DNA from: a virus
Length of the DNA: 48,471 bases
IMG/VR virus record: IMGVR_UViG_3300021197_001268
Location: 1-48,471 of that record
Strand: one strand, 5' to 3'
The number at the start of each line of letters is the position of its first letter. The stretch's first letter is position 1. Below are positions 13,410 through 16,925 of the stretch, piece after piece. The notes beneath the pieces are model-generated. The model was not told the DNA's origin. It was given only the letters and a program-made list of their open reading frames with translations, and ran no database searches. The position numbers were made by a program, and so were the translations under genes.

Positions 13410-13466
13410 GTCCCGCTCCGGCGGGACATAGCTCACAGCTACCAGTCAGCTGGTGGTTGCGAGCTA
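13410..13466 (+). promoter_or_regulatory. Two stacked hairpins ending on the moxR start codon
   Basis: Hairpin 1 (13410-13427) has a perfect 7-bp stem GTCCCGC/GCGGGAC with loop TCCG, a UNCG-type tetraloop. Hairpin 2 (13429-13466) has TAGCTC pairing with GAGCTA, one A-C mismatch, then CAGCTACCAG pairing with CTGGTGGTTG with three wobble or G-T pairs, loop TCAG. The last paired base of hairpin 2 is the A of the ATG at 13466. A structure of this strength at the start codon should control translation, and no Shine-Dalgarno sequence is present. Confidence 0.7.
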
Positions 13467-14578
13467 TGAAAGCAACTACTACAAACCAAACACCAACCGC
13501 CAAGACGGTTGCCGCCCTTGAAACCATCGCCAAAGCTGCAAAGGCTTCCAGCAACTACCTTCGGATCCTAGGCCGATCCGGAGGCGGAAAGACTACCATT
13601 GCCGCCGATCTTGCGGCATGTCTTGGCATCAATGCCGATCGAGTTTCGATCGTTAACTTCGCCGGATCGCTTCCTTCCCAAGTGATCGGCCAACTTATGC
13701 CGGACGCCGCGAGCCGTGAAAGCTGGCGCACAAAACCGATCGACTTGCCGCTCCGTGATAAGGTCGGCGACGATCCTTTCCTTCTCATCCTTGATGAGTT
13801 TGCCAGTTGGGATCAGTCGATCCAATGCCTCTTTCATGGCATCAAGTCTCCGGACGGCATGCCGCGAGTCGGCAGCCATGAGTTGCCGCCGAAGCTTTTC
13901 GTAATCCTGACTGGCAACCGGAAGGAAGACGCCGCCGCCAGCAACACGGAAAAGGCTCCGATCGTTGGCCGTTCCTTGTCGGTTGAATGGTTGCCGACTG
14001 TCAAAAGCTGGCGGGATCATGAAGGATCCGCCGCCGCAGCCTCTCCGATCGCCGCTTTCTTGTCGTATTGCGGCAAGGCCGGATCCGATGTGGCCGATTT
14101 CTTTTGTCCAGCTCCGCCGAAGCCATGGCGCGGCGAGCCTTACCCGCAGCCAAGAGAATGGTCCGGCCTGATCAAGGCGGAGGCTTCCTCCGACTGGCCA
14201 TCCGATCCCGCTTTGCAAAATCTAGTGATCGCCTCCGCCGTTGGCCAGTCTGCCGCCGATGCTTGCACGGCGTTCTTATCGCTGGCCAAGAAGATTCTGC
14301 CGCTCATGGAGTCAATCTTGATCGGAGAGGCTCCGCTTCCTAATGGTCCACAGGATCGCTACGCAATCGCCCATTGTGCGATCCGGCGAGCGATCGACAT
14401 AGCCGGAAAGGATCCCGCCGCCGCCGTTGCTGGTGGCAAGCTTGATCCGATCATTGAAAAGATCTTGCTGCCACTCGATCCCGAAATGCGGAGCTGGTCA
14501 TTCAATGCCGCAAAGGCGGCAGGGATCCCGCTAGAATTACATCCCGCACAATCTAAACTCCAAAACCTAAACCTCTAA
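13466..14578 (+). CDS. MoxR-type AAA+ ATPase
   Basis: 370 residues from ATG at 13466; the frame stays open upstream, but those codons form the hairpin leader. Walker A is GRSGGGKT (36-43), Walker B LLILDEF (106-112), sensor-1 TGN (149-151). A conserved loop with GSLPSQVIGQLMP corresponds to the MoxR pore region. A winged C-terminal helical domain follows. Such ATPases work with VWA-domain partners to remodel or insert metals into target complexes; the VWA partner is two genes downstream. Codons are GCC/CCG/ATC-rich and GATC-dense compared with the structural genes. The last residues are encoded by a CTAAACC-like low-complexity run that also forms the next gene's leader. Confidence 0.85.
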   Translation: MKATTTNQTPTAKTVAALETIAKAAKASSNYLRILGRSGGGKTTIAADLAACLGINADRVSIVNFAGSLPSQVIGQLMPDAASRESWRTKPIDLPLRDKVGDDPFLLILDEFASWDQSIQCLFHGIKSPDGMPRVGSHELPPKLFVILTGNRKEDAAASNTEKAPIVGRSLSVEWLPTVKSWRDHEGSAAAASPIAAFLSYCGKAGSDVADFFCPAPPKPWRGEPYPQPREWSGLIKAEASSDWPSDPALQNLVIASAVGQSAADACTAFLSLAKKILPLMESILIGEAPLPNGPQDRYAIAHCAIRRAIDIAGKDPAAAVAGGKLDPIIEKILLPLDPEMRSWSFNAAKAAGIPLELHPAQSKLQNLNL

Positions 14579-14613
14579 AACCTCTAATCTCTAAACCTAA
14601 TAAAACTAAAACC
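14558..14613 (+). repeat. Degenerate CTAAACC-like leader tract
   Basis: A run of imperfect (C)CTAAA(A)CC units covers the end of the ATPase gene and the gap before the ATG at 14614. It has almost no G, so it will be unstructured in RNA, an SD-free translation leader between two coupled genes. Confidence 0.7.
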
Positions 14614-15527: not shown

Positions 15528-16865
15528 ATGACTAAGCAAAAAGAAAGCCTTACGCTCTCGCCTCTCTTGTCAGAGCTGATCAAAAAAGCTGAAAGAAGAC
15601 TCCGCCAATACGGCGGGCTTGGGTATCAAAGCTATTTATCCATGCCGCGAGAGTTAACCTCTGAAACTCCTTACGGCGCGACCGATTCCCGCACCCTCTA
15701 CCTGAATCCCGAAGGGATCGACAAGCTAGCCCGCTCCGCCGATCCGGTAGGCTTCACGGCCTTTTTGCTATTGCATGAAGCCCTTCACGCAATGCTCCGC
15801 CATCCGATCCGATGCCGCGACTTTAGCGACCGGAAGACGGCCAACATTGCCGTTGACTATCTAGTCAATGCCCTGATCGATCAAATCAACCGCGAGACGG
15901 TCGGCCTTGTCCCCTTCCCGATCATTGAAGGAGCTTATCTTGATCGCGATTTGAGCGATGGCCATGACGCCGTTTCGCTTTACAATTACCTCCTTCAAAC
16001 TGCGGAGCCGGAGCCGGAAGAAGGCGACAGCGACAGCGACAGCGACAGCGACAGCGACAGCGACAGCGACAGCGACAGCGACAGCGACAGCGACAGCGAC
16101 AGCGACAGCGACAGCAAAGGCGGCAAGGCCGATGATCTTTCCGACATTCATTCCGGAGACTTCTTTGAGCCTTCATTGAAGGAAGGCGAGACGGTCGGCG
16201 AATTCGATCAGGAAGTTAACGAAACGATCGAGCAAAACGCCGCGCAAGATGCAATGGATAAGATCGCCGGAGTCGGCGGGAGCGATGCCCTCGCAAAAGC
16301 GGTTGCAAACACTCGCAACGAATTCCAGAAAATCGATTGGCAAGATCACCTCTCGCAATGGCTTTCTTCCTCGATCGCCGGAGGCGAGTATGACGGCATC
16401 GATGCCGCGCATTATTCCGGAACCGGACTAGTAGAAGATGAAAGATCTTGCCGAAATGTTGGCGAGCTTGTCGTAGTAGTTGACACGTCCGGCTCGCTAG
16501 TCAGCAATAATAAGATCGTGACTTCCGCCCTTGATCAAATCGAGTCGCTTTCAACCGATGCCGCGCCGAAGACGATCCACGTCTTGCACGTTGATTACAT
16601 CATTCGGCATCATGAGGAAGTGAACGCTGGCGATCCTATCGACCGCGAGCTTCACGGCGGTTGGGGGACATCATTCAAGCCTGCTTTCGATTGGATCGAG
16701 GAAAACGCGCCTGATGCTAAGGGAATCGTTTATATCACCGATGGATTCGCGAGCGACTGGGAAGAGCTGGAAGAACCATCGCTTCCAGTCTTGTGGCTCG
16801 ATTATGGGTATCACTCAAGCCTCTACAAATTTGGCGAAGTCGCCTCGATCTATCGGGAAAGCTAG
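15528..16865 (+). CDS. DUF2201-type metallopeptidase-VWA protein with Asp-Ser repeat
   Basis: 445 residues. The N-terminal zincin-like domain has HEALH (83-87) followed by a conserved NIAVDYLVN segment (106-114), as in the DUF2201 N-terminal family. An acidic linker contains 15 uninterrupted Asp-Ser dipeptides (167-196). The C-terminal VWA-like domain has an intact MIDAS motif DTSGS (D319, S321, S323), a later GGWGTSF loop and YITDGF strand. Metal-binding VWA proteins of this type pair with MoxR ATPases, and the partner is encoded two genes upstream. Both active motifs are intact, so I expect a working ATPase-driven protease or chaperone. Target unknown. Twin hairpins follow the stop codon. 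Confidence 0.85.
   Translation: MTKQKESLTLSPLLSELIKKAERRLRQYGGLGYQSYLSMPRELTSETPYGATDSRTLYLNPEGIDKLARSADPVGFTAFLLLHEALHAMLRHPIRCRDFSDRKTANIAVDYLVNALIDQINRETVGLVPFPIIEGAYLDRDLSDGHDAVSLYNYLLQTAEPEPEEGDSDSDSDSDSDSDSDSDSDSDSDSDSDSDSKGGKADDLSDIHSGDFFEPSLKEGETVGEFDQEVNETIEQNAAQDAMDKIAGVGGSDALAKAVANTRNEFQKIDWQDHLSQWLSSSIAGGEYDGIDAAHYSGTGLVEDERSCRNVGELVVVVDTSGSLVSNNKIVTSALDQIESLSTDAAPKTIHVLHVDYIIRHHEEVNAGDPIDRELHGGWGTSFKPAFDWIEENAPDAKGIVYITDGFASDWEELEEPSLPVLWLDYGYHSSLYKFGEVASIYRES
16026..16115 (+). repeat. Fifteen perfect GACAGC hexanucleotide repeats
   Basis: 90 bp of uninterrupted GACAGC, in frame, encoding (Asp-Ser)15 between the metallopeptidase and VWA domains. Complete nucleotide identity means it is slippage-prone. 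Length changes keep the frame in steps of two residues, so it acts as a tunable acidic linker. Confidence 0.97.
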
Positions 16866-16869
16866 TCGC

Positions 16870-16925
16870 TCCACCGTTGCTCTCGCCTTAGGGCGAGGGC
16901 TTAGGTGGATTGATTAGATCAATCC
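16870..16925 (+). terminator. Mutually exclusive hairpins after the VWA gene
   Basis: Hairpin 1 has outer stem TCCACC/GGTGGA (16870-16875, 16904-16909) and inner stem CTCGCC/GGCGAG with TTAG loop (16882-16897). Hairpin 2 is a perfect 8-bp stem GGATTGAT/ATCAATCC with TAG loop (16907-16925), followed by TTCTT. The two share bases 16907-16909, so they compete. This resembles a terminator/antiterminator or processing site separating the three-gene operon from the small genes downstream. Confidence 0.6.

Follow-up and report, generated by a model that had tools for sequence, protein, structure and literature searches.

Introduction

Among the closest described counterparts of the locus analysed here are gp24 and gp25 of N4, which are core genes of N4-like phages with a function listed as unknown or vWFA (PMC4193335; PMC2784036) and which are expressed as middle transcripts (PMC4193335). 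The pair, consisting of an ATPase of PHROG 1297 and a DUF2201 protein of PHROG 1314, occurs in Schitoviridae (e.g. Acinetobacter phage Presley), in Rhizobium, Roseobacter, Thermus and Pantoea phages and in cyanophages. The window, which designates the whole stretch of DNA that was analysed, i.e. the 48,471 bases of the IMG/VR virus record IMGVR_UViG_3300021197_001268, contains the same arrangement, with a PHROG 1297 ATPase near a PHROG 1314 DUF2201 protein. The ATPase family, the architecture with DUF2201_N and VWA domains and the invariant residues are the same as in N4; the pair is core in N4-like phages, whereas it is accessory in the window. A MoxR ATPase and a metallopeptidase-vWA protein have also been described in jumbo-phage group 2.2, and a role in virion assembly was proposed for them (Iyer et al. 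2021, PMC7824862). As far as the accessible part of that source describes it, this system has its metallopeptidase domain N-terminal to the vWA domain, as in the window, and is a pair, with no mention of a third subunit, whereas the window carries an accessory trio in a phage lineage of ~55-60 kb.

The cellular MoxR/VWA chaperones RavA-ViaA, NorQ-NorD and CbbQ-CbbO and the ATV p618-p892 system are likely to share with the window the logic of a ring served by a VWA adaptor. We know of no metallopeptidase domain and no DUF3150 partner in these four systems. The third component and the effector domains of the VMAP/FtsH MoxR-vWA ternary conflict systems were not seen in the window, where the third gene is of the DUF3150 type. 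Another close arrangement is a Burkholderiales plasmid operon (pMTS2, NZ_AP025173), which has the three families in the same order and is of similar size, although its ATPase and DUF2201 proteins are only ~20-25% identical to those of the window. The plasmid trio is located near PRTRC genes or is followed by T4SS genes, whereas the trio of the window is phage cargo.

A three-gene locus in a variable region of the phage

The locus comprises three ORFs on the same strand, preceded and followed by hairpin pairs:

13408..13473, plus strand: double-hairpin leader (fold z -6.7; covariance model; two-sided changes)
13410-13427, plus strand: hairpin 1 of the leader, with a UCCG tetraloop
13428-13467, plus strand: hairpin 2 of the leader, whose 3' arm extends two bases into the ATPase start codon (ATG 13466)
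13466..14578, plus strand: MoxR-like AAA+ ATPase, 370 aa, N4 gp24 type (PHROG 1297; invariant Walker A/B, N151, R169, R230)
14614..15501, plus strand: putative third subunit, 295 aa, helical, divergent DUF3150 (PF11348) family (hhalign, HMM, predicted structures)
15528..16865, plus strand: DUF2201_N metallopeptidase (zincin-like) and VWA protein, 445 aa, N4 gp25 type (PHROG 1314; Pfam DUF2201, DUF2201_N)
16024..16115, plus strand: hexanucleotide tandem repeat (GCGACA)15.3, a Ser-Asp linker between both domains (repeat analysis)
16861..16925, plus strand: 3' hairpin pair after the DUF2201 stop (fold z -7.1; alignment with G001, G002)

G numbers denote phage relatives of the window. An earlier note on this DNA had placed the three genes between structural and packaging blocks; the position is right, but the region is one of variable cargo, and the structural genes on either side, like a giant ORF, lie on the opposite strand. 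A tRNA search of the window found none.

The ATPase matches PHROG 1297 (E 2e-23) and remains below the Pfam cut-offs for AAA_5 (16.8 bits, cut-off 22) and AAA_3 (13.3 bits, cut-off 27); the G005 ATPase comes close to that of bpMoxR (E 8.7e-6, 25.4 bits, cut-off 27). In an alignment of 16 members, residues G39, K42, D110, N151, R169 and R230 are invariant and cover Walker A, Walker B, the sensor 1 Asn, the Arg finger and the sensor 2 Arg, which agrees with the earlier description of an intact MoxR-type ATPase. The start of the gene is likely best placed at ATG 13466 and not at the first ATG (13400), because the upstream extension is broken by stops in G001 and G002 and the conserved ATG sits in the hairpin arm.

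The product of the ORF at 15528-16865 exceeds the curated Pfam cut-offs for both DUF2201 (PF09967; E 5e-14, 52.9 bits, cut-off 26.4) and DUF2201_N (PF13203; E 7e-11, 42.6 bits, cut-off 23.2). The HExxH and MIDAS motifs already noticed in it are found as an HExxHxxxxH zinc motif and a MIDAS (DxSxS, T, D) that are invariant among 19 diverse members. Since their active-site and metal residues are invariant in the 16- and 19-member alignments, the ATPase and the DUF2201 protein both look active. The metallopeptidase domain may serve for binding the client rather than for cutting it. The acidic linker is present, as had been reported; its DNA is made of a 6-bp unit repeated perfectly in tandem 15.3 times, and its sequence is not conserved among relatives in the 19-member alignment. 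In RefSeq phage records (e.g. NC_049431, NC_023719, NC_023581), DUF2201 metallopeptidase-VWA proteins of PHROG 1314 carry the label 'HNH endonuclease'; this label finds no support in their sequences and looks like an error that has been propagated. In G001, the DUF2201 gene is split across two frames (45663-46959), possibly by a sequencing error, a frameshift or decay.

The third subunit is a divergent relative of DUF3150

The helical protein encoded between these two genes had been regarded as an unknown member, and our comparisons place it close to DUF3150. Searched by itself, it matches no family of Pfam (PF11348 included), PHROG or NCBIfam. The plasmid protein annotated as DUF3150 is also subthreshold against PF11348 (22.1 against a cut-off of 24.9), and the third gene of G005, located beside the ATPase, weakly matches Pfam DUF3150 (E 0.0033). 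When profiles of the window family (7 sequences) and of DUF3150-type proteins (12 sequences), with G005 left out, were compared by hhalign, they aligned with a probability of 96.8% (E 2.6e-10) over 239 collinear columns. As controls, 18 unrelated families from the same phages did not exceed 2.9%, and reversed profiles stayed within 0.7%. In a set of 14,479 ORFs, an HMM of the DUF3150 type that was built without the window lineage detected the window gene (E 2.1e-8); in the same set the combined-profile matches, among those listed, fall only on third-subunit genes.

The structures of the window protein (pLDDT 71.5, moderate) and of the Cupriavidus DUF3150 protein (pLDDT 81.9) were predicted independently and display the same order of elements, with two helices of ~40 residues and a short helix and a strand between them. 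Neither model matched a PDB fold below E 0.1. On these profile comparisons, the window protein is best described as a divergent DUF3150 relative, not as a Pfam-level member, a wording chosen because Pfam's own cut-off is missed.

The trio is found on plasmids and in other phages

Loci fetched through the third subunit alone, adjacency not being a criterion, show the order ATPase-DUF3150-DUF2201 in 57 of 61 cases, mostly from Burkholderiales and thus not independent of one another. Genes annotated as DUF3150 lie between ATPase and VWA-like genes in plasmid and cyanophage (MinM2) records, and Cupriavidus plasmid pMTS2 (NZ_AP025173) carries the trio in the same gene order. The set is also found in Variovorax, an Acidobacteria MAG, cyanophage MinM2 and the window lineage, and the phage relatives G005, G012 and G024 have it in a rearranged order, DUF3150-ATPase-DUF2201. 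The proposal of a dedicated three-gene set is corroborated by these searches and by the annotated records, and the three genes are far from being rarely adjacent elsewhere. Because searches with the third subunit alone recover both partners in order, the trio can be assigned as a ternary module common to phages and plasmids of soil bacteria.

On pMTS2 (NZ_AP025173.1, 64788-79443), a PRTRC cassette (ParB, E, C, F, B, A, ThiF) is located a few kb upstream of the trio. T4SS genes come after the trio on a Paraburkholderia acidisoli plasmid, and 36 of 55 genome loci have homologous downstream genes at the positions and lengths of the T4SS ATPase genes of that plasmid. In the DUF3150-first variant, a similar protein of 445-463 aa is encoded after DUF2201 (G005, 25845-27182, minus strand; G012, 24192-25583, plus strand).

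In the N4-like loci examined, no DUF3150-type gene is found within ~5-6 kb of the core pair; the third subunit is thus dispensable in some cases or has been replaced. A 174-aa gene located between the ATPase and DUF2201 in Presley was considered as a third subunit and rejected, having no DUF3150 match.

In the literature searched, largely without subscription papers, neither the identity of the third subunit nor the plasmid-phage link was found, and the word DUF3150 is absent from it. The ATPase/DUF2201 pair was already known; the new elements are the DUF3150 identity of the third subunit and the link between plasmids and phages, with the repeated leader described below as a separate small novelty.

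The module is accessory cargo in its phage lineage

With a profile of the terminase, 297 relatives were retrieved, and the 80 best of these were retained. Among the longer terminase-relative records, DUF2201 is present in 6 of 22 and missing in 16. The near-complete G007, G008 and G011, whose terminases are 94-95% identical, are without the DUF2201 module, and the module-less near-complete contigs (G007-G011) keep the portal, the capsid genes, the terminase and a giant ORF of 3517-4270 aa. In module-less relatives, other small genes occupy the same site. The module is accessory cargo in the phage lineage of the window, because close terminase relatives without it retain the virion block and hold other small genes at the site.

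The giant ORF of the window (18669-29534, minus strand) encodes a virion-type protein of 3621 aa, with homologues of 3517-5173 aa in relatives; neither Pfam nor PHROG nor the PDB yielded a match for it. A giant virion protein is also present in N4, in the form of its virion RNA polymerase (gp50). Searches for an N4-type vRNAP in the giant ORF, made with PHROG, Pfam, PDB sequences and a set of simple motifs, gave no match.

It could be argued that the module is a virion-assembly chaperone, which folds, matures or clips a structural protein such as the product of the giant ORF that it adjoins in the window and in G001-G005. Such a role was proposed for the same domain pair in jumbo phages (PMC7824862) and is shown in part for ATV p618/p892, in which the virion protein p618 binds the VWA protein p892 (PMC4124505). 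However, giant ORFs, portal and capsid genes persist in module-less relatives as close as those described above, the strand of the module is opposite to that of the structural block, and the trio is carried by plasmids, which make no virions. The cargo status of the module therefore weakens both the idea of virion assembly, which we consider unlikely, and that of the giant ORF as client, which was rejected. Its distribution as an accessory element speaks against the module having a general role in virion assembly, or being an obligate assembly chaperone, in the lineage of the window, and the processing of a virion protein, put forward in the earlier note, is not retained as the default role, since close relatives keep the same virion block without the module.

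A repeated double-hairpin leader precedes cargo genes

The hairpin pairs had been seen as a frame around the module. They are real, both pairs being far more stable than shuffled sequences (5' pair, z -6.7; 3' pair, z -7.1), but a frame specific to the module is not supported, since the 5' pair repeats elsewhere and heads unrelated cargo genes. The 3' pair consists of an inner CTCGCC-TTAG-GGCGAG followed by GGATTGAT-TAG-ATCAATCC and is conserved in G001 and G002. Typical intrinsic terminators were rejected, no T-run being present after either pair.

The leader is made up of two hairpins, the first capped by UUCG or UCCG and the second long and ending in AGCTATG. The next frame starts at this ATG; in one copy (G007, position 658) that frame has only 11 codons. 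A covariance-model search found 17 plus-sense copies in seven genomes (the window, G001, G002, G007, G008, G011 and the L222 contig) and none in the other sources searched. The model was built from 13 copies and its E-values are rough; the window copy, which is included in the model, scores 77.4 bits (E 3.6e-15). Covariation is strong: over the 13 copies, 10 pairs show two-sided changes, against 0-2 in slid controls. A pattern scan of 2.9 million viral contigs returned five contigs only with the leader, four of them already in the group and the fifth carrying the same portal and giant-ORF genes, and Rfam gave no match. The leader would control the initiation of translation in the cargo region. 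As it is common to unrelated cargo genes, it informs on cargo expression and not on the function of the trio.

A-rich stretches of the AAAACCAATAAAATG type, without Shine-Dalgarno, lie upstream of 14614, 15528 and 17370, hinting at a host that does not rely on Shine-Dalgarno. Two near-identical palindromes (TTGGTATTTATCTA-N4-TAGATAAATACCAA, with 14-bp arms) are located at 12047-12078 and 32001-32032, each preceding a minus-strand block, and possibly represent an operator or promoter element.

Discussion

We propose, as the more probable interpretation, that the trio is one ATP-driven protein-remodelling machine of mobile elements, carried here as accessory cargo, and that its most likely point of action is a complex encountered by plasmids and phages alike, either on the host side or in the element's own DNA-processing machinery. 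This proposition is based on the protein families, the catalytic and metal residues, the conserved trio and the accessory distribution; the assembly, the proteolysis and the target are inferred. The MoxR-like ATPase would form a hexameric ring, on or in which the DUF2201 protein would dock its VWA domain, the MIDAS metal gripping the client. The N-terminal zinc-binding domain of the DUF2201 protein, held by a flexible acidic linker, would bind or cut the client, and the DUF3150-type protein would be the dedicated third subunit that selects or presents it. The client, a host-side or element-side complex, would be remodelled and perhaps clipped. The mechanism of a ring with a VWA adaptor is drawn from MoxR/VWA precedents: in NorQ/NorD, MIDAS mutations spare ring binding and abolish client maturation, the MIDAS binding the client and not the ring (PMC9976466), and in ATV the VWA protein p892 is bound by p618 (PMC4124505). 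A client outside the virion is favoured because the trio occurs on plasmids and as phage cargo.

The trio could instead serve in conflict, between elements or against the host, as a weapon or counter-defence device whose effector would be the metallopeptidase. Its accessory placement in a cargo hotspot and its presence in both plasmids and phages are consistent with this hypothesis, and MoxR-vWA ternary systems with peptidase effectors have been proposed in conflict (PMC7159879). Nevertheless, PADLOC gave no convincing match, VMAP, beta-propeller and effector components were all absent from what was seen, and the pair is core in N4-like phages and expressed as middle transcripts in N4 (PMC4193335), unlike an optional weapon, so that we regard this role as improbable. 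The hypothesis that the helical protein is a mere coiled-coil neighbour with a compositional resemblance to DUF3150, to which the lack of a match from PF11348 itself could lend weight, can be set aside as highly implausible, given that the hhalign controls and reversed profiles drop to at most 3% probability, that the matches listed among 14,479 ORFs are third-subunit genes, and that the gene position is conserved and the predicted elements are in matching order.

Returning to the remodelling machine, it can be hypothesised, with about even chances, that MoxR-DUF3150-metallopeptidase/VWA is a distinct ternary remodelling system moved between tailed phages and plasmids, located here in a cargo region with unrelated genes that are each headed by a start-codon-sequestering double-hairpin leader, a new cis-regulatory RNA family that would coordinate cargo expression. 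The repeated leader is a separate RNA element that is readily testable. The genes gp24 and gp25 of N4 belong to the conserved core but are still recorded as unknown or vWFA, and the apparently wrong 'HNH endonuclease' label conceals proteins of the DUF2201 metallopeptidase-VWA type. Now that a third subunit and a plasmid counterpart are recognised, reconstitution of a complex can be attempted, and a phenotype can be searched for in a plasmid system.
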